Shown in pieces: positions 882 through 42,348 of a stretch of 64,000 nt of DNA; position 1 is the first letter of the stretch, and each line of letters opens with the position of its first letter. Origin of the DNA: Pedobacter cryophilus (GTDB taxonomy: Bacteria; Bacteroidota; Bacteroidia; Sphingobacteriales; Sphingobacteriaceae); NCBI RefSeq assembly GCF_005116455.1, contig NZ_SWBP01000001.1, positions 434,001-498,000 of the forward strand. Reading direction: 5' to 3'. Below the pieces are notes generated by a model. That model ran no database searches and was not told the origin of the DNA. It saw only the letters and a list, made by a program, of their open reading frames with translations. A program made the position numbers and the translations under genes.

Positions 882-1754
882 TTGAAAGGAATTATACTTG
901 CAGGTGGCTCAGGCACCAGATTACACCCATTAACACTAGCAGTAAGTAAGCAAATGATGCCTATTTACGATAAACCGATGATTTATTATCCTTTATCAAC
1001 ATTAATGTTAGCTGGAATTAATGAAATCTTAATTATTTCTACCCCTCATGATTTGCCGGGTTTTCAAAAGCTATTAGGTAACGGAGAAAATTTAGGATGT
1101 ACATTCTCTTATGCCGAACAGCCTTCACCTGATGGATTAGCACAAGCTTTTATCATTGGTGCAGATTTTATTGGCGATGACGCTGTAGCCTTAGTTTTAG
1201 GAGATAACATTTTCTTTGGAGACGGAATGGCTAAATTAATGCAAACCAATAATGATCCAAAAGGTGGCGTAGTATTTGCCTATCCGGTAAACGATCCAGA
1301 GCGTTACGGAGTAGTAGAGTTTGATGAAAATAAAAATGCCATTTCAATAGAAGAAAAACCAACACATCCAAAATCTAATTATGCAGTCCCAGGACTTTAT
1401 TTTTATGATAATGAAGTGGTAGAAATAGCAAGCAATATTAAGCCCTCCCCAAGAGGTGAATTAGAAATTACGGATATCAATAGAGTATATTTAGAAAGAG
1501 GTTTATTAAAAGTTGGTTTATTAAGCAGAGGAACTGCTTGGTTAGATACCGGAACCTTTGAATCTTTAATGCAGGCAGGGCAATTTGTTCAAGTAATTGA
1601 AGATCGCCAGGGATTAAAAATTGGCTGCATTGAAGAAATTGCTTTTCGCATGAATTTTATAGACGCCAACCAACTGCGTAAATTGGGCCAGCCATTAATT
1701 AAAAGTGGTTATGGTAAATATTTGATAGACATTGCCAACGGGAAAATCCTGTAA
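882..1754 (+). CDS. rmlA: Glucose-1-phosphate thymidylyltransferase
   Basis: It joins dTTP and glucose 1-phosphate to make dTDP-glucose, the entry point for dTDP-deoxysugars. At 290 residues it has the usual RmlA length. The nucleotide-binding motif [11 protein letters not shown] is at residues 8-18, followed by the [16 protein letters not shown] segment, the metal-binding GDNIFFG loop near residue 107, and EEKP further on. The start is a TTG at 882, chosen because it gives the family N terminus MKGIILAGG and no in-frame ATG lies close by. No rmlB is present in the window. dTDP-glucose may feed the deoxysugar cassette at 8.4-11.8 kb. Confidence 0.95.
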
Positions 1755-1936: not shown

Positions 1937-3076
1937 ATGAGTAAAGTTGCCCTTATCACAGGAATCACCGGACAAGACGGTGCGTATTTAGCTGAATTTT
2001 TATTAAAAAAAGGCTATCATGTACATGGTTTAAAAAGAAGATCTTCACTATTTAATACCGATAGGATAGATCATTTGTATCAAGATCAACATGAAGAAGG
2101 GGTGAAATTGACCCTGCATTACGGAGATTTAACGGATTCTACCAATTTGATTCGTTTAGTTCAAGAAATACAGCCAGATGAAATTTACAATTTGGCAGCT
2201 ATGAGCCATGTAAAAGTAAGTTTTGATACGCCAGAATATACCGCTAATGCGGATGGTATTGGAACATTAAGAATTTTAGAAGCGGTAAGGTTATTAGGTT
2301 TGACTCAAAAAACCAGAATTTACCAGGCATCTACTTCAGAATTATATGGTTTAGTACAAGCTGTACCACAATCAGAAACTACTCCTTTTTACCCAAGATC
2401 GCCTTATGCTGTAGCTAAAATGTATGCTTACTGGATTACGGTAAATTACAGGGAAGCCTATAATATGTATGCTTGTAATGGGATTTTATTCAATCATGAA
2501 AGTCCTATCAGAGGGGAAACTTTTGTGACACGTAAAATAACCAGAGCAGCCGCTAAAATAGCCATGGGCCTACAAAACTGTTTGTATTTAGGGAATTTAT
2601 CTTCTCAAAGAGACTGGGGACATGCTAAAGATTATATAGAAGCCATGTGGTTAATTTTACAACAAGAAAAACCAGAAGATTTCGTTATTGCAACTGGCGT
2701 AACCACTACAGTAAGAGAATTCATCAGAATGAGTTTTGAAGAGTTAGGGATTACCTTAGAGTTTTCAGGAAAAGATGAAAACGAAAAAGGAGTGATTATT
2801 GATGTAGATCAAGAAAAAGCTAAGGAATTAGGTTTAAATATAGATTCATTAAAATTAGGGCAAACCGTAGTAAAAGTAGATCCTAAATATTTCAGACCAA
2901 CTGAAGTAGAATTACTTTTAGGTGATCCTACCAAATCAAAAGAAAAACTAGGTTGGAAATTGAAGTATGATTTACCTGCTTTAGTAAAAGATATGGTTCA
3001 TTCTGATTTGCATTTGACTAAAAAAGATCAATATTTGAAAGATGGTGGTTATCAAACCATGAATTATTTTGAGTAA
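1937..3076 (+). CDS. gmd: GDP-mannose 4,6-dehydratase
   Basis: It converts GDP-D-mannose to GDP-4-keto-6-deoxy-D-mannose, precursor of GDP-fucose, GDP-rhamnose, GDP-perosamine and GDP-colitose. The Rossmann motif TGITGQDG is at residues 8-15, the NADP-contacting KRRSSLFNT segment near 33-41, and the extended-SDR catalytic set T133, E135, Y157 and K161. [16 protein letters not shown] is typical of Gmd. The length, 379 residues, is normal. No GMER/fcl partner is obvious next to it. A shorter paralogue lies at 16332-17297. It is flanked on both sides by dispersed inverted repeats. Confidence 0.95.
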
Positions 3077-6886: not shown

Positions 6887-8391
6887 ATATTAGATATAAA
6901 TTATTGAACAAAAACAACAGATTATTCATTAATGGATTTTTATCTATACTTCAAGTAGTTTTCCTTTCACTATCCTATTTTATAATATACACTTTATTAT
7001 TAAGAAAATTAGGCCCAACAAAATTAGGGATATGGTCAATTGTATTAGCAACATCATCCGTTGGTGGAGTTGCAAGTGCAGGTTTAACATCAAGTTTAGT
7101 AAAATATATTGCAAATTATTCAAGAGAGAGGGATTATCAGAAAATAAATAGCTTAATTAAAACTGGATTAATCTCCTTAACAGTGTTAAACTTATTTATA
7201 ATTATTATTTTATTTTATTTAGGAAATTTTTTTTTGCCAAAAGTTGTACCCATAACTGAGCTAGCTGAAGTGACATCATTACTACCTCTATCTTTACTTA
7301 GCTTGTTGTTAAACACTACAGGAGGAATATTTTTATCTGCAATTGATGGGTTACATTTTTCCTTTCTAAGAAGTGTAATTTATATATTTTCTTCATTACT
7401 ATTCTTATTGTTAGCCTACTTTTTTATTGATATTTACGGATTAAAAGGAATTGCATTTGCTCAAATTGCACAAGGATTTTTTGTAATAATATCAAGTCTA
7501 GGTATAATTAAATCAATATTTATTAAGTTTAGTCTTTATCCTTTAATTTGGGAAAAAAAAGTGTTTAGAAAAATATTTAACTACAGTTTAAATTTTCAAA
7601 TAATTAGTTTCTGTTCCATTTTCACAGAACCATTAACAAAGTTTTTACTCTCCAAATATTCTGGACTTGATTTTGTTGGTATATATGAGATGGCTAGTAG
7701 ACTTATAAGTCAGCTTAGATCTTTGATGGTTTCTGCTAATCAAATATTAGTTCCATTTATTTCAAACAAATTTTCAATTGGTAAAAATGCCAAAGACGAA
7801 AGCTATCCAATTGTATTAAAATTTTCATATTACATTGCTTGTATATCAATGCTCTTTTTAATTATTTTTTCCCCAATAATTTCATTTTATTGGATTGGTG
7901 TTTACAGTGACGTTTTTGTTTACTCAACAATTTTAGTTGGTTTAGCAATGATAGTGAATATAGTAAGTACACCTTCTTATTTTTCAAGCATGGGAATGGG
8001 GAAATTAAATGGTATTAAATATTCACATATTGCTATTTTAATAGTTAATGGAATACTAGGATTAATCTTAGGTCCAATTTTTAAAGGTTGGGGAATCTTG
8101 GTTAGCTATTCTGTTGCATTAATAGTTGGATCCTTAATCACATTAATTTATTATCATAAAATGTATGATTTCTCAATTAGAGAGATTTTTAAAAAATCAG
8201 GAATATTAAGCACTTTATATATCTTTTTATGCTTAATTATAACAACAGTTAGTTATAATTTCAACCTTACTGCGAATCGCTTGATATACTCTATTGTTGC
8301 TTTCATAATTTTATCAATCTATATCATATGGATTTATTTTAATGAAGATTATTTAAAATTTAAGATAGATAAATTTATTAAAAACATATAA
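6883..8391 (+). CDS. Polysaccharide flippase (Wzx-like, MATE/MOP superfamily)
   Basis: It should flip lipid-linked repeat units across the inner membrane. The 502-residue protein is almost wholly hydrophobic, with about twelve to fourteen predicted membrane helices and the small charged N-terminal part usual in Wzx proteins. Sequence identity within this family is low, so the call rests on topology and on its place between the Wzz-like gene and the sugar genes. A 45-base gap follows, the largest inside the packed operon. Confidence 0.87.
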   Translation: MNIRYKLLNKNNRLFINGFLSILQVVFLSLSYFIIYTLLLRKLGPTKLGIWSIVLATSSVGGVASAGLTSSLVKYIANYSRERDYQKINSLIKTGLISLTVLNLFIIIILFYLGNFFLPKVVPITELAEVTSLLPLSLLSLLLNTTGGIFLSAIDGLHFSFLRSVIYIFSSLLFLLLAYFFIDIYGLKGIAFAQIAQGFFVIISSLGIIKSIFIKFSLYPLIWEKKVFRKIFNYSLNFQIISFCSIFTEPLTKFLLSKYSGLDFVGIYEMASRLISQLRSLMVSANQILVPFISNKFSIGKNAKDESYPIVLKFSYYIACISMLFLIIFSPIISFYWIGVYSDVFVYSTILVGLAMIVNIVSTPSYFSSMGMGKLNGIKYSHIAILIVNGILGLILGPIFKGWGILVSYSVALIVGSLITLIYYHKMYDFSIREIFKKSGILSTLYIFLCLIITTVSYNFNLTANRLIYSIVAFIILSIYIIWIYFNEDYLKFKIDKFIKNI

Positions 8392-8436
8392 CGCATTTAT
8401 ATATAGATTTTTAATGGATTTTAAACTCACATTTTT

Positions 8437-9183
8437 ATGAACAAAATAAAAGATTTGCAAAAGAACTTAAAATTATCTTTCCCAACACTTTCGATAAATT
8501 CTATTGATTTTATTATCTCTTCACTAATTAAAGATGATAGCATTTTTAGTGACGATAATTTTTTTGAGTGGCTTAAAAAATTGAATCAAAAGGTTACATT
8601 TAAAACTGAATTTATCTCAATAAAACAGATAGCAAATTGGGAATTAGATCGGAACAATAATTTACACCACATTAGCAAAAAATTTTTTAGTATAATAGGA
8701 TTAAGCATTAAGGCTCAGTTTAAAGATAAAATTTATGAATGGAAACAACCTATAATTAATCAAGCAGAAATAGGATTTTTAGGTTTCTTATGTCAAAAGA
8801 AAAATGGAGTTTTATTTTTTTTAATGCAAGGAAAAATTGAACCCGGTAATGTCAATAAAATACAATTATCTCCAACTCTACAGGCCACTAAAAGTAATTT
8901 TACCCAAGTCCATGGGGGTACACCACCCCCATTTCTTGATTATTTTAAAAATCAAATGGAAGGAAAAACAGTATTAGTAGATCAACTTCAATCTGAACAA
9001 GGAGCTAGATTCTTGAGGAAAAGGAACAGAAATATGATTGTTAAAATTGAAGAGCAAATTGAAATCGATACTCCAGAAAATTTTTGCTGGCTTACAATTA
9101 AACAAATTAAGATGCTTTTAAAATATCCTAATTTAGTTAACATGGATACAAGGACCGTTTTATCGACTATACAAATTATTTAG
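8437..9183 (+). CDS. NDP-hexose 2,3-dehydratase, N-terminal-half protein
   Basis: The family (EvaA, TylX3, KijB and others) removes the C2 hydroxyl from dTDP-4-keto-6-deoxyglucose, giving a 3,4-diketo-2,6-dideoxy sugar. Family motifs are EWKQPII (101-107), LMQGKIEPGN (129-138), QLSPTLQAT (143-151), QSEQGARF (185-192) and MDTRT (236-240). Known members are single chains of roughly 460-490 residues built from two similar halves. This one has 248 residues and only one half, and the other half is the next gene. The stop TAG is at 9181-9183 and the next ATG starts at 9185. It keeps the better-conserved EPGN and LSPT motifs. Confidence 0.88.
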   Translation: MNKIKDLQKNLKLSFPTLSINSIDFIISSLIKDDSIFSDDNFFEWLKKLNQKVTFKTEFISIKQIANWELDRNNNLHHISKKFFSIIGLSIKAQFKDKIYEWKQPIINQAEIGFLGFLCQKKNGVLFFLMQGKIEPGNVNKIQLSPTLQATKSNFTQVHGGTPPPFLDYFKNQMEGKTVLVDQLQSEQGARFLRKRNRNMIVKIEEQIEIDTPENFCWLTIKQIKMLLKYPNLVNMDTRTVLSTIQII

Positions 9184-9184
9184 C

Positions 9185-9874
9185 ATGGAATTATATAAGG
9201 ATCCGTTCCAAAGGGACATATTTGAGTCTTTAATAAACAGAGATAATCAAACTAATTCATTTGAAAATATAATCAGTTGGTTTACGAACCTCAAAATGTT
9301 TGCTAATCTTGAAATTAAAGAATGTAATATTGATGATTTAGATTTCTGGAGTGTTTCAGAAGATTCAATTTCACATAATTCAGGTAAATATTTTGAGGTT
9401 TTAGGTATAAAATGTACAGTTGGAAATCGAGAACTTTCAGAATGGTGCCAACCTATAATCAGACAAAGAGAAGAAGGTGTAATCGGGTTTATTGTCAAAA
9501 AGATAAATGGAGTTCTCCACATATTAATTCAGGCTAAATTAGAAGCGGGAAATTTTGATATTTTAGAGATGGCCCCTACAGTTCAATGTATCACGGGAAG
9601 TTATACAAATCCAGAACATAGTGTTGAGTATTTGGACTATTTTTTAAATAAAAAAGGTATAGTTCACTATGATGTGATTCAATCTGAAGAAGGAGGGCGA
9701 TTTTTTCACGAGCAAAATAATAATATTGTTATCGAGGTGGCTGAATCCGATTTAAATCAGATTCATCCCAATTTTATTTGGATGACCTTTAATCAAGCTA
9801 AAGAATTTATAAAATTCAACAACTATTTTAATATTGAAGCCAGAAGTTTGTTGGCTTGCATAACACCTGTTTAA
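9185..9874 (+). CDS. NDP-hexose 2,3-dehydratase, C-terminal-half protein
   Basis: This 229-residue protein is a paralogue of the gene before it and shares its motif order: EWCQPII (86-92), LIQAKLEAGN (114-123), MAPTVQC (129-135), QSEEGGRF (166-173) and IEARS (217-221). Together the two proteins total 477 residues, the length of one fused 2,3-dehydratase. The two genes are in different frames with one base between them, and each has its own ATG, so coupled translation into a heteromer is likely. The motifs here have drifted (EAGN for EPGN, APT for SPT), as expected if this half has a structural or partner-binding role. The stop TAA overlaps the next ATG by one base. Confidence 0.86.
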   Translation: MELYKDPFQRDIFESLINRDNQTNSFENIISWFTNLKMFANLEIKECNIDDLDFWSVSEDSISHNSGKYFEVLGIKCTVGNRELSEWCQPIIRQREEGVIGFIVKKINGVLHILIQAKLEAGNFDILEMAPTVQCITGSYTNPEHSVEYLDYFLNKKGIVHYDVIQSEEGGRFFHEQNNNIVIEVAESDLNQIHPNFIWMTFNQAKEFIKFNNYFNIEARSLLACITPV

Positions 9875-10842
9875 TGGAAAAGATTAAAATTGGAATAATT
9901 GGATGTTCGGCAATAGCAAATAAGACGGTAATTCCTACTATTCAAAAAAACAATTTATATGAATTAACCTACTTAGGATCAAGATCTTATGAAAAAGGAA
10001 AGTTGTTCTCTGAAAAATTTAATTGTCCATTTGGAAGCTATGATGATGTACTAAATTCTAACAATGTTGACGCTATCTACGTATCTGTTCCTACTGGTTT
10101 ACATTTTAAATGGGGCAAAAAAGTTTTGCTTTCAAATAAGCATTTATTGTTAGAAAAACCTTTCACATCAACCCTTGAACAATCTAAAGAATTAGTTAAA
10201 ATAGCTAATATTAATAATAAAATCGCAATGGAAGGCTTAGCATATGTTTATCATCCATGGTTTATAGAATTACAAAAACAACTAAACAATAGAGTGATTG
10301 GTGAAATCAAGCAAATTAGTTCGTCTTTTGGCTTTCCTTATTTACTTAAAACTGATATTAGGAATAATCCAGATATTGGAGGAGGTGCAATTTTAGACAA
10401 TTTAATTTATCCTTTAAGTCTAAGTTTAAACTTACTTGGAGAACCAACCTTGGGAATTTCATATCATATTATTAAAGATAAAATATTAGGGATAGATGAA
10501 AGTGGTTTTTTACGCTTAAACTATTTAAATGCCGCTGCAACTTTGACTTATGGTTTTGGCTTTAGTTATAAAAATGAAATTGAGATATGGGGAACTTTAG
10601 GTTCAATATTCATTGAAAGGGCATTTACGAAACCACCTGATTTAGAAGCTAAACTTTATGTAAAAATTAATGACTCCATTAAGGAAATATCAATTGGTTA
10701 CCATGACCAATTTTATTTAATGTTTAATGCTTTCTATCAAAAAATAATTAAACAAGATACCTCAAACAAGAATGAGTCAAAAGACATCATAACAAGAATG
10801 AAAATTATATCAGAAATATATAAAAGTACTAAAAATGAATAA
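9874..10842 (+). CDS. Gfo/Idh/MocA-family sugar 3-ketoreductase
   Basis: The N terminus KIKIGIIGCSAIANK is a Rossmann motif and EKP at 94-96 is the Gfo/Idh/MocA signature. The protein has 322 residues from the ATG at 9874. An upstream TTG at 9856 would add six residues inside the previous gene and is less likely. In 2,6-dideoxysugar pathways a Gfo/Idh/MocA enzyme (KijD10 type) reduces the unstable 3-keto product of the 2,3-dehydratase at C3. The position directly after the two dehydratase halves supports that role. The stereochemistry of the product cannot be read from the sequence. Confidence 0.83.
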   Translation: MEKIKIGIIGCSAIANKTVIPTIQKNNLYELTYLGSRSYEKGKLFSEKFNCPFGSYDDVLNSNNVDAIYVSVPTGLHFKWGKKVLLSNKHLLLEKPFTSTLEQSKELVKIANINNKIAMEGLAYVYHPWFIELQKQLNNRVIGEIKQISSSFGFPYLLKTDIRNNPDIGGGAILDNLIYPLSLSLNLLGEPTLGISYHIIKDKILGIDESGFLRLNYLNAAATLTYGFGFSYKNEIEIWGTLGSIFIERAFTKPPDLEAKLYVKINDSIKEISIGYHDQFYLMFNAFYQKIIKQDTSNKNESKDIITRMKIISEIYKSTKNE

Positions 10843-11752
10843 AATTGTTTTACTAGGTGCAAATGGTTACATAGGACAACACTTAGCTTCTAAGTTAATA
10901 AATGAAAATTGTTTAGAATTATATTTATTTGATATTCAGGAAAAATCAGTGAATAACTTTCCAAATTATTACCAATTAAATTTATTGGAGGATATCCCTG
11001 AAGAATATAAAGAAATCATTATATCTGCAAATTATATTTTTCATTTTTCAGGAATAACAGGAACCTTAAAAAGTATCGAATATAACCGGACATACATTAA
11101 TGTAAACGAAATTGGATTATTAAATATTCTTGATATAATCAGAAAAATTGATGGTATTAAACCTAAAATAATATTTCCATCTACCCGATTAATATATAAA
11201 GGCGCTAAGAATACTTTACTTAGAGAGGATGCTGAAAAAGAGTTTAAAACAATATACTCAGTAAATAAATTTGCTTGTGAGCAATATTTAGAAATTTATA
11301 AATCTCTGTATAATATTACCTATTGTATACTGAGAATATGTGTTCCATATGGCAATATGTTAGAAAGCAATTTATCTTTTGGGACAATTAGTCATTTTAT
11401 TAATAAAGCTAAATCCAAAGAAAATATTATAATTTATGGAGATGGGAGCTTAAAAAGAACTTTTACTCATATTGATGATTTAACAAATTTAATAATAAAA
11501 GGAGGCTTAAGTAAAAAAACAGATAATCAAACTTTTAATATTGCTAGTAATAATCATCTAACTCTTTTAGAAGTAGCGCAACCTATTGCAACTAAATATA
11601 ACGTCAAAATAGAATTAAAAGAATTTCCAGAACAAGATTTAATAATAGAATCCGGAGATACAATTTTTGATGGGAGAAAATTAAAAGACATTTTGTTTTA
11701 TGAATATAAGCATAATTTTAATGATTGGATTAAAAACTTAAAGACGGTGTAA
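10835..11752 (+). CDS. NAD-dependent epimerase/dehydratase-family (extended SDR) sugar-nucleotide reductase
   Basis: The protein has 305 residues with a glycine-rich GANGYIG at 8-14, SGITG near 72-76, and the SDR pair Y141/K145 in YSVNK. It starts inside the last 8 bases of the previous gene, so the two are probably translated together. In the dideoxysugar cassette the missing step is C4 reduction of the NDP-4-keto sugar, and this enzyme fits that job by inference. Alternatives are a 4-epimerase, or a reductase acting on the Gmd product (GDP-rhamnose or GDP-fucose formation). Confidence 0.8.
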   Translation: MNKIVLLGANGYIGQHLASKLINENCLELYLFDIQEKSVNNFPNYYQLNLLEDIPEEYKEIIISANYIFHFSGITGTLKSIEYNRTYINVNEIGLLNILDIIRKIDGIKPKIIFPSTRLIYKGAKNTLLREDAEKEFKTIYSVNKFACEQYLEIYKSLYNITYCILRICVPYGNMLESNLSFGTISHFINKAKSKENIIIYGDGSLKRTFTHIDDLTNLIIKGGLSKKTDNQTFNIASNNHLTLLEVAQPIATKYNVKIELKEFPEQDLIIESGDTIFDGRKLKDILFYEYKHNFNDWIKNLKTV

Positions 11753-16331: not shown

Positions 16332-17297
16332 ATGAAAAAAACCGCAATAATTACCGGAATAACGGGCCAAGATGGAGCATACTTAGCTAAATTTTTATTA
16401 AAAAAAAATTATAGAGTAATAGGTCTTACAAGAGGTTATTCAAATTATAATAATAAAAACCTTTCTTATCTAGAAATAAGTGAATTAATAGAGATTGAAG
16501 AATGTGATTTATTAGATTTCTCCAGCTTATTTAAATTAATGCTAAAGTATCAGCCAGATGAGTTTTATAATTTAGCTGCTCAAAGTTCTGTTAGTCTTTC
16601 ATTTGAACAACCAATTGGTACAATTAATTATAATACTCATTCTGTGCTGTCAATTTTAGAATGTATTAGAATTTTAGGTTATTCAACTAAATTTTATCAG
16701 GCTTCCAGTAGTGAAATGTATGGGAAAGTTAAAAATTTACCCGTTAATGAAGATATGCCATTACATCCTTTAAGTCCATATGCCATTTCAAAAGCTTCAG
16801 CTTATTGGATTTTGACCAATTATAGAGAGTCTTATGGGATTTATGGAGTAAATGGAGTTCTATTTAATCATGAATCTTATTTAAGAAGCCCCAATTTCTT
16901 CATTAAAAAAGTTTTAAAAACATCTTTAGACATCATTCATAAAAAAACTGACAAACTCATTGTAGGTAATATTGATATTAAGCGTGATTTTGGCTACGCA
17001 AAAGATTACGTTAAAGCTATGTATTTATCATTACAACAAAACAATCCTGATGATTATTTAATATGCTCCGGCCAATCTCTATTTTTACGAGATATCATCT
17101 ATTATGTATTTGAAAAGTTGAACATCTCAAAAAGCAAATTATTTGAGGATTCAAAACTTTTTAGACCAACAGAAATAGAGGATATTTATGGAGACAATAC
17201 AAAGGCAAAAAAACAGCTTGGGTGGGAATACAATAAAACATTTTATGATGTTTTAGATATTTTAATTGACGAAGAAATAAAAAATTATATTATATGA
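16332..17297 (+). CDS. Short GDP-mannose 4,6-dehydratase-like protein
   Basis: At 321 residues it is about 60 shorter than the gmd at 1937. It keeps TGITGQDG (8-15), E128 in SSSEMYG, Y150/K154 in YAISK, the Gmd signature LFNHES, and RPTEIEDIYGD near the end. It lacks the longer KRRSSLFNT-type cofactor loop (TRGYSNYN instead) and part of the C-terminal substrate region. It may be a true GDP-mannose dehydratase, an Rmd-like GDP-4-keto-6-deoxymannose reductase, or an enzyme for another GDP-sugar. It is as AT-rich as its neighbours, unlike the upstream gmd. Confidence 0.78.
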   Translation: MKKTAIITGITGQDGAYLAKFLLKKNYRVIGLTRGYSNYNNKNLSYLEISELIEIEECDLLDFSSLFKLMLKYQPDEFYNLAAQSSVSLSFEQPIGTINYNTHSVLSILECIRILGYSTKFYQASSSEMYGKVKNLPVNEDMPLHPLSPYAISKASAYWILTNYRESYGIYGVNGVLFNHESYLRSPNFFIKKVLKTSLDIIHKKTDKLIVGNIDIKRDFGYAKDYVKAMYLSLQQNNPDDYLICSGQSLFLRDIIYYVFEKLNISKSKLFEDSKLFRPTEIEDIYGDNTKAKKQLGWEYNKTFYDVLDILIDEEIKNYII

Positions 17298-41103: not shown

Positions 41104-42348
41104 TTATTTGTCTTTGTTGCTGCTCAATACCTCCATAAAAACAGTAAGTTCTTTTGTAAAAGCATCTAAAGAAACAGCAGATTTTTTAATGTTATCTATT
41201 AATATTTTTAAATCCTCGTACTCAATCGAATAATCTAACAAACCAGACAAGCCTATGATGTTTGCAACAGGTTGTCTTACTTTATGAGAGGTCATAAACA
41301 TCATTTCTTCTAAACCTAAAATGTATTCCTTTAAATATTCTTCGGTTTTTTTTAATTCGCTATAAGCACTAACTAATTCACTAGCTCGCTTCTCTTTTTC
41401 TATGTTTTGATATGCAAGTTCCTTATTGGCAATTATTAATTCGGCAGCTCTATTTTCCTTTTCCAAATTCTGATACGCCAATTCTTTATTAGCAATAATC
41501 AACTCATTTGCTCTATTTTCTTTTTCTAAATTCTGATAAGCTAATTCTTTAATGGCGATAACCAACTCATTTGCTCTACTTTCCTTCTCTTCATTTTGAT
41601 ACGCTAATTCTTTAATAGCTATAACCAACTCATTTGCTCTACTTTCCTTCTCTTCATTTTGATAAGCCAATTCTTTGTTTGCAATGATCAACTCATTTGC
41701 TCTATTTTCTTTCTCTAAATTCTGATAAGCTAATTCTTTATTAGCAATTACTAATTCGGCAGCTCTATTTTCCTTCTCTTCATTTTGATACGTAAGCTCT
41801 TTATTGGCAATTACTAATTCAGCAGCTCTATTTTCCTTCTCTTCATTTTGATAGGCCAATTCTTTATTGGCTATAACTAATTCACTTGCCCTATTTTTCT
41901 TCTCTTTTTTTTGATACGCTAATTCTTTATTGGCTATTTCAAGCTCGGCAGCTCTATTTTCCTTCTCTTCATTTTGATACGTAAGCTCCTTATTAGCAAT
42001 TTCCAATTCACTCGCTCTATTTTTCTTCTCTTTTTTTTGATACGCTAATTCTTTATTGGCTATTTCAAGCTCGGCAGCTCTATTTTCCTTCTCTTCATTT
42101 TGATACGTAAGCTCCTTATTAGCAATTTCCAATTCACTCGCTCTATTTTTCTTCTCTTTTTTTTGATACGCTAATTCTTTATTGGCTATTTCAAGCTCGG
42201 CAGCTCTATTTTCCTTCTCTTCATTTTGATAAGCAAGCTCCTGATTTGCAATTACCAATTCAGCGGCTCTCTTCTCCTTTTCTTCATTTTGAAAAGCAAG
42301 TTCTTGATTAGCTAAATTTAGTTCTTCGGATTCGTGTTTTTTTTGCAT
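41104..42348 (-). CDS. Repeat coiled-coil protein with lone HisKA-like domain
   Basis: The 414-residue protein has three parts: a short start, fourteen complete 21-residue repeats (residues 21-314, pattern like NEEKENRAAELVIANKELAY) plus a partial one, and a C-terminal segment of about 80 residues. The repeat is three heptads long, so a continuous coiled coil is expected. The C-terminal segment has MTSHKVRQPVANIIGLSGLL with His355 where a histidine kinase H-box would be, then helices, and stops at NKDK. No HATPase domain, sensor domain or signal peptide is present, so it cannot phosphorylate itself. It may be phosphorylated by another kinase, be a phosphotransfer or scaffold protein, or be a truncated kinase. 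Confidence 0.8.
   Translation of the reverse strand: MQKKHESEELNLANQELAFQNEEKEKRAAELVIANQELAYQNEEKENRAAELEIANKELAYQKKEKKNRASELEIANKELTYQNEEKENRAAELEIANKELAYQKKEKKNRASELEIANKELTYQNEEKENRAAELEIANKELAYQKKEKKNRASELVIANKELAYQNEEKENRAAELVIANKELTYQNEEKENRAAELVIANKELAYQNLEKENRANELIIANKELAYQNEEKESRANELVIAIKELAYQNEEKESRANELVIAIKELAYQNLEKENRANELIIANKELAYQNLEKENRAAELIIANKELAYQNIEKEKRASELVSAYSELKKTEEYLKEYILGLEEMMFMTSHKVRQPVANIIGLSGLLDYSIEYEDLKILIDNIKKSAVSLDAFTKELTVFMEVLSSNKDK
41407..42288 (-). repeat. 63-bp tandem repeat array, fourteen units, in frame
   Basis: The coding repeats are 63 bp each. Units alternate between NEEKENRAAEL and KKEKKNRASEL types in the N-terminal half, giving nearly identical 126-bp pairs between about 41,900 and 42,230. 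The last units (10 to 14) are a separate set with NLEKENRA and NEEKESRA. This shows two rounds of local duplication. Because each unit is a whole number of codons, copy number can change without losing the frame. Confidence 0.9.

Follow-up and report, generated by a model that had tools for sequence, protein, structure and literature searches.

The closest described relatives of the gene pair reported here are NDP-4-keto-6-deoxyhexose 2,3-dehydratases in which two similar halves lie on one chain, as in EvaA (PDB 4j7g and 4j7h), whose crystallised chain has 471 residues. According to a review, the glutamates E139 and E190 of pocket A are essential in EvaA, and pocket B is reported to be inactive, its residues being named as 'E352 and D353' (PMC8987622); in the numbering of the PDB chain residue 353 is an aspartate and residue 352 is not a glutamate, which is discrepant with that wording. 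From EvaA, the second pocket of the 2,3-dehydratases has been described as a dead remnant of gene duplication. The enzymes TylX3, OleV, UrdS and SpnO, which are named in the same review (PMC8987622), would be expected to catalyse the same reaction and are set apart from our pair by their description: they belong to actinomycete antibiotic clusters, whereas the locus considered here lies in a cluster for exopolysaccharide or O-antigen. The fused homologues collected in this work (L009–L088 and G1130) are likewise single chains, with 42–50% identity over both halves in 33 of the 38 that were aligned. (Note that we found no paper on a split 2,3-dehydratase in the open literature, where most subscription papers are missing.)

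In the 64,000-nucleotide stretch of the Pedobacter cryophilus genome that we analysed (hereafter the window), the single-chain architecture of EvaA is replaced by two adjacent genes on the forward strand. The first, A (8437–9183, ATG start, TAG stop), encodes a protein of 248 residues of the N-half type, and the second, B (9185–9874, ATG start), one of 229 residues of the C-half type. Each contains a single PF03559 domain, matched at 242.1 bits in A and 238.0 bits in B against a curated cut-off of 25 bits, and a profile search found no further PF03559 match anywhere in the window's whole genome. The preliminary description had claimed two open reading frames, each with an ATG of its own, in different frames and separated by a single base, and this is borne out: the junction at 9181–9187 of the forward strand reads TAG-C-ATG, with the stop codon of A one base ahead of the start codon of B, and the reading frame of B is +1 relative to that of A. 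The lengths also add up to that of the fused enzyme as claimed, 477 residues for A plus B against 471 for EvaA. We consider it likely that A and B are translated together as the two subunits of a single NDP-4-keto-6-deoxyhexose 2,3-dehydratase that arose by fission within an operon and that makes a 2,6-dideoxy sugar for exopolysaccharide or O-antigen; judging from their spacing, the two genes would be translationally coupled. A potential hairpin of eight pairs (five of them G-C) with a five-base loop lies inside ORF A at 8912–8932 and is absent, by eye, at the matching place in the related genome G728.

Among solved structures, EvaA alone was matched by A and B at E-values up to 0.001, the N-half of EvaA being best for A (i-Evalue 1e-45) and its C-half best for B (2.1e-39). 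The best PDB match to an AlphaFold2 model of A (mean pLDDT 89.4) was EvaA 4j7h with a VIA-align Z of 20.7, and the same entry came first for the model of B (mean pLDDT 88.8; Z 20.3, 29% identity). Among the matches listed, Nudix hydrolases followed EvaA at Z 7.5–8.4 for A and 8.8–10.5 for B, each half having a Nudix-like predicted fold. The predicted folds of A and B thus match EvaA. Both models were placed on residues 13–249 of EvaA, that is on its N-half, so that fold matching fails to separate the two halves and the separation comes from sequence. A heterodimer is plausible by homology, and the analysis as a whole suggests that A and B probably form a heteromer, in which they would pair as the halves of EvaA do, giving an A–B unit and possibly, by analogy with the EvaA dimer, an A2B2 assembly. 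A would supply the active pocket, and B would be required as a structural partner and may bind the nucleotide sugar.

To locate the catalytic residues, we used an alignment that combined EvaA with the split pair from each of three genomes and with 89 fused proteins; among the latter are near-duplicates, a protein truncated by the end of its contig (L068) and another whose halves were taken from two contigs (G467). E135 and E187 of A stand at the columns of EvaA E139 and E190, so the check on which half carries the catalytic residues, proposed in the preliminary description, finds both glutamates kept in A and at the same places as in EvaA. B also has glutamates at these two columns (E120 and E168), whereas the C-half of EvaA has an aspartate (D353) at the first. 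Indeed, the C-halves of the fused proteins keep a glutamate at the two columns in 83 and 86 of the 89 cases, which argues against the simple-remnant view; the picture of the C-half as an inactive leftover, drawn from EvaA, may fail for most of the family. With the natural split, each half is a protein of its own and can be expressed, mutated or swapped without the other, which makes the role of the second half directly testable. The preliminary description had further taken drift in the EPGN and LSPT motifs of the second half to suggest division of labour. The drift itself is real, B having EAGN for EPGN and MAPT for LSPT, but its reading as a division of labour does not stand: at the P column the 89 fused C-halves have A in 28, P in 25, C in 24 and S in 10, and at the S column of LSPT A in 69 and G in 15, so that such changes are ordinary in fused C-halves and give no sign of a division of labour in B. 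The same C-halves share SEEGGRF as a near-invariant motif of their own, frequently with EQNR after it; B keeps SEEGGRF, within the region of residues 165–178.

The cassette of A, B, ketoreductase and short-chain dehydrogenase/reductase (SDR) recurs with the same split in a second genus of the family, in the genomes G728 (on one contig) and G843; the search for split pairs in other genomes of the phylum, which the preliminary description had suggested, was therefore positive. The split position is common to all three genomes, the last residues of A (IQII-stop) and the first residues of B aligning throughout. The junction differs from that of the window in that in G728 and G843 it reads TAA-GAT-ATG, with stop and start three bases apart and in one frame. 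Between the window and G728, 150 of 248 residues are identical in A (60%) and 168 of 229 in B (73%), with synonymous sites saturated (NG86 dS); between G728 and G843, dN is 0.002 and dS 0.07–0.08. A and B are under purifying selection and their split is conserved in two genera, and the reading that fits is that they are two separately maintained genes. A known enzyme thus exists in a real two-gene form that two genera share, which carries a warning for annotation: a PF03559 gene of half length is not necessarily a fragment. Upstream of the split cassette of G728 (L091 765–5347, partly L108) there are CDP-glucose/CDP-dideoxyhexose-like pathway genes, by eye a nucleotidyltransferase, a 4,6-dehydratase and an aminotransferase-like 3-dehydratase, none of which was seen among the open reading frames of the window.

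Carriers of PF03559 were few in every set of genomes that we sampled. They numbered 1 among 100 relatives of the window, 3 among 395 genomes of the phylum sample, 9 among 395 of the class sample, 1 among 161 of the order sample, 2 among 399 of the family sample (the second being G728) and 2 among 145 genomes of the genus of G728; the window's own genome is one carrier in every sample but the last, and the samples overlap each other. In the phylum of the window, 12 carriers were found across the genome samples, of which 9 are fused and 3 are split (the window, G728 and G843), so that the refutation envisaged in the preliminary description, that most Bacteroidota members are already split, does not hold. 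Eight of the nine carriers in the class sample are fused, the ninth being the window, and the phylum sample includes a divergent fused protein of 423 residues (G203). A contig scan that took one genome per species confirmed at least 537 relatives, and in each of the best 80 of these the two domains share a single open frame, although in one of them (L068) the second domain is cut by the contig end. (Note that the scan used two peptide patterns, neither of which G728 matches, and that it may miss records close to the window; together with the restriction to the best 80 of 537, this biases it against relatives like G728.) In a sample of the actinomycete phylum, which includes the genome of L058, the family is carried by 7 of 246 genomes with eight genes between them, each fused and in a frame of 460–890 residues that has both matches. 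Of 85 plasmid records matching A, 75 are from Streptomyces, and the one plasmid gene examined is fused; in phages there was no match, and among viral contigs none was confirmed. The two-gene 2,3-dehydratase is genuine and, on these counts, rare among its relatives. G467, a carrier from the phylum sample with its two domains on different contigs (L003/C88 and L005/C7), was considered as a second unfused case and rejected, because both frames end at contig ends in the same Gly/Ser/Asn-rich repeat, and we take it for a single fused gene that was interrupted in assembly. Such a break in a repeat linker, spread over two contigs, might be mistaken for a gene split.

How the split arose bears on whether a duplicated and fused enzyme can be pulled apart again, for which this pair offers a test case. 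We think that it probably goes back to a single fission inside an operon; in particular, the pair would have arisen in an operon ordered dehydratase–ketoreductase–SDR, an order seen around some fused genes. Seven loci with fused genes have this order (L009, L022, L028, L033, L035, L040 and G1130); most fused loci have no SDR match beside the gene, and the three-gene order is not general. Among the fused loci, that of G1130 has by far the closest ketoreductase found to those of the split cassettes (276 bits, against at most 176 in other fused loci), and in a ketoreductase tree, for which only a very distant outgroup was available, it is sister to the split ones (100%). This favours fission, provided that the cassette travelled as a unit. 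The dehydratase of G1130 is fused (461 residues), and it may or may not be the sister of the split pair (AU p 0.32), its branch being too long for a firm placement. In the order of G1130 a match is carried by 1 of 42 genomes, G1130 itself, and those 42 genomes hold no nearer fused relative of the split pair. The G1130 locus (L119 7280–10599) thus combines a very divergent fused dehydratase with the same downstream ketoreductase and SDR.

The alternative is that the pair is an unfused relic dating from after the duplication and before the fusion that gave the EvaA-type enzymes, which we regard as unlikely. N-halves and C-halves separate at 100% in trees, A falling with the former and B with the latter, and when the halves are concatenated the split pairs group as a single clade (100%), placed among the fused proteins at the end of a long stem, which would fit such a relic. 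In a duplication-rooted tree, letting the split lineage branch before all fused proteins by holding the latter together costs only 1.3–1.4 log units and is not rejected (AU p 0.427 and 0.368), and in an SDR tree the split cassettes lie outside 12 fused ones, without G1130 grouping with them. All three carriers found in the window's family, moreover, are split. These points are offset by the distribution of the two forms, the split being known from only three genomes in two genera of one family, whereas fused homologues come from records titled Bacteroidota, Actinomycetota, Pseudomonadota, Cyanobacteriota and others, many of them metagenome bins. B also has N-half-like residues that are uncommon in fused C-halves (S66, I91, Q94, E96, G101, Y149 and F153), and at 30 columns that mark N-halves it keeps the N-type residue in 7 (window) or 8 (G728 and G843), against a median of 2 in fused C-halves; however, the maximum among the latter is also 8, in the fused L052, which is thus as N-like as B. 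Similarly, A and B do without the long linker of most fused homologues, but short linkers are also found in several fused actinomycete proteins. The identity between A and B (31% in the window and 29% in G728) is not above the median of 32% between the halves of fused proteins, which speaks against a relic, as does the sister position of the ketoreductase of fused G1130. The evidence, which is circumstantial, leans towards fission as likelier than an ancestral unfused state. A and B also show no excess similarity of the kind that gene conversion or a recent duplication would leave.

A fission may have been followed by a change of roles, a reading that is compatible with our preferred account of two subunits of one enzyme and that we regard as rather unlikely. 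Here B would be the more constrained subunit with a working pocket of its own, either a second active site or a regulatory site for the nucleotide sugar, and A would be relaxed. In fused dehydratases the N-half is usually more conserved than the C-half, whereas in the split pair the reverse is seen. Specifically, in a careful joint tree the ratio of C-half to N-half distance between the window and G728 is 0.50, below all 561 pairs among 34 fused proteins (median 1.46, minimum 0.77). Aligned identities between the same two genomes are 165 of 218 in B and 139 of 219 in A, a difference of +0.122 (site-bootstrap 95% interval 0.035–0.209), against a median of -0.081 and a maximum of +0.057 for C-half minus N-half in 1368 fused pairs with N-half identities of 0.57–0.69. 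Of ten cassette genes set against their G728 or G843 counterparts, B shows the highest conservation, and it has both glutamates and several N-like residues. The reversal is, however, a single evolutionary contrast, and the fused pairs with which it is compared are not independent. Furthermore, identity at fourfold sites is higher in B (21 of 42) than in A (13 of 40), which leaves room for partial recombination, and A has kept both catalytic glutamates; the reported inactivity of pocket B in EvaA (PMC8987622) points the same way. The stronger proposal, that the C-half is by now the indispensable and more constrained subunit with its own nucleotide-sugar pocket, possibly in a state older than the fused enzymes, seems to us doubtful.

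Two further readings would deny that A and B are separate subunits at all. Recoding, by which a fused protein would still be made through programmed frameshifting or stop read-through, is suggested by the very short junctions and is highly improbable: it would take a +1 shift at TAG in the window and an in-frame read-through of TAA in G728 and G843, no recoding site is shared, and a start codon for B stands at the junction in all three genomes. A broken gene (a frameshift or pseudogene) or a sequencing error in the window, which the preliminary description had named as a refutation and which the window alone would allow, since the open frame of B reaches upstream to 9137 and the overlap with A at 9137–9183 could be joined by an indel, is rejected as scarcely credible, because in G728 and G843 the genes divide at the matching position, through a different junction, and show no signs of decay.

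On our preferred reading of A and B as subunits of one dehydratase, the product would be an NDP-3,4-diketo-2,6-dideoxyhexose, which the next enzyme would reduce at C3. That enzyme, a Gfo/Idh/MocA oxidoreductase and likely NDP-hexose 3-ketoreductase, is encoded on the forward strand at 9874–10842, its start overlapping the stop of B by one base, and its best PDB match is the 'Sugar 3-ketoreductase' 3rbv (164.7 bits), which we take to be KijD10. An SDR of the NAD-dependent epimerase/dehydratase family (10835–11752, forward strand, an eight-base overlap with the preceding gene), a candidate 4-ketoreductase or epimerase, would then modify the product to the 2,6-dideoxy sugar for the cluster's exopolysaccharide or O-antigen. 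A scan of 8300–10900 gave 8 promoter-like sites against 16.3 expected from shuffles. The left end of the cluster is marked by an RmlA/RfbA glucose-1-phosphate thymidylyltransferase (882–1754, forward strand; 472.6 bits, cut-off 360.65), and an RmlB is found elsewhere in the genome (475.1 bits, cut-off 365.1); together with the putative 3-ketoreductase, these genes suit a predicted 2,3-dehydratase activity. Other surrounding genes are export-protein-like, flippase-like and O-antigen ligase/polymerase-like, together with an undecaprenyl-phosphate glucose phosphotransferase, and it is from these sugar and polysaccharide genes that a 2,6-dideoxy sugar for exopolysaccharide or O-antigen is expected.

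Judged from the genes present, the nucleotide carrier could be dTDP, GDP or another. The choice is wide because the cluster has GDP-mannose-dehydratase-like genes, namely a canonical gmd (1937–3076) and a short GDP-mannose-4,6-dehydratase-like SDR (16332–17297, forward strand; 322 bits, under the gmd equivalog cut-off of 415), the latter also being present in the cassettes of G728 (216 of 320 residues identical) and G843, and because CDP-glucose-type genes lie beside those cassettes. Elsewhere in the window, an open reading frame on the minus strand (41104–42348) encodes a protein in which many degenerate repeats of about 22 residues (EEKENRAAELEIANKELAYQN-like) stand in tandem ahead of a C-terminal segment that resembles, by eye, a histidine-kinase dimerisation region.
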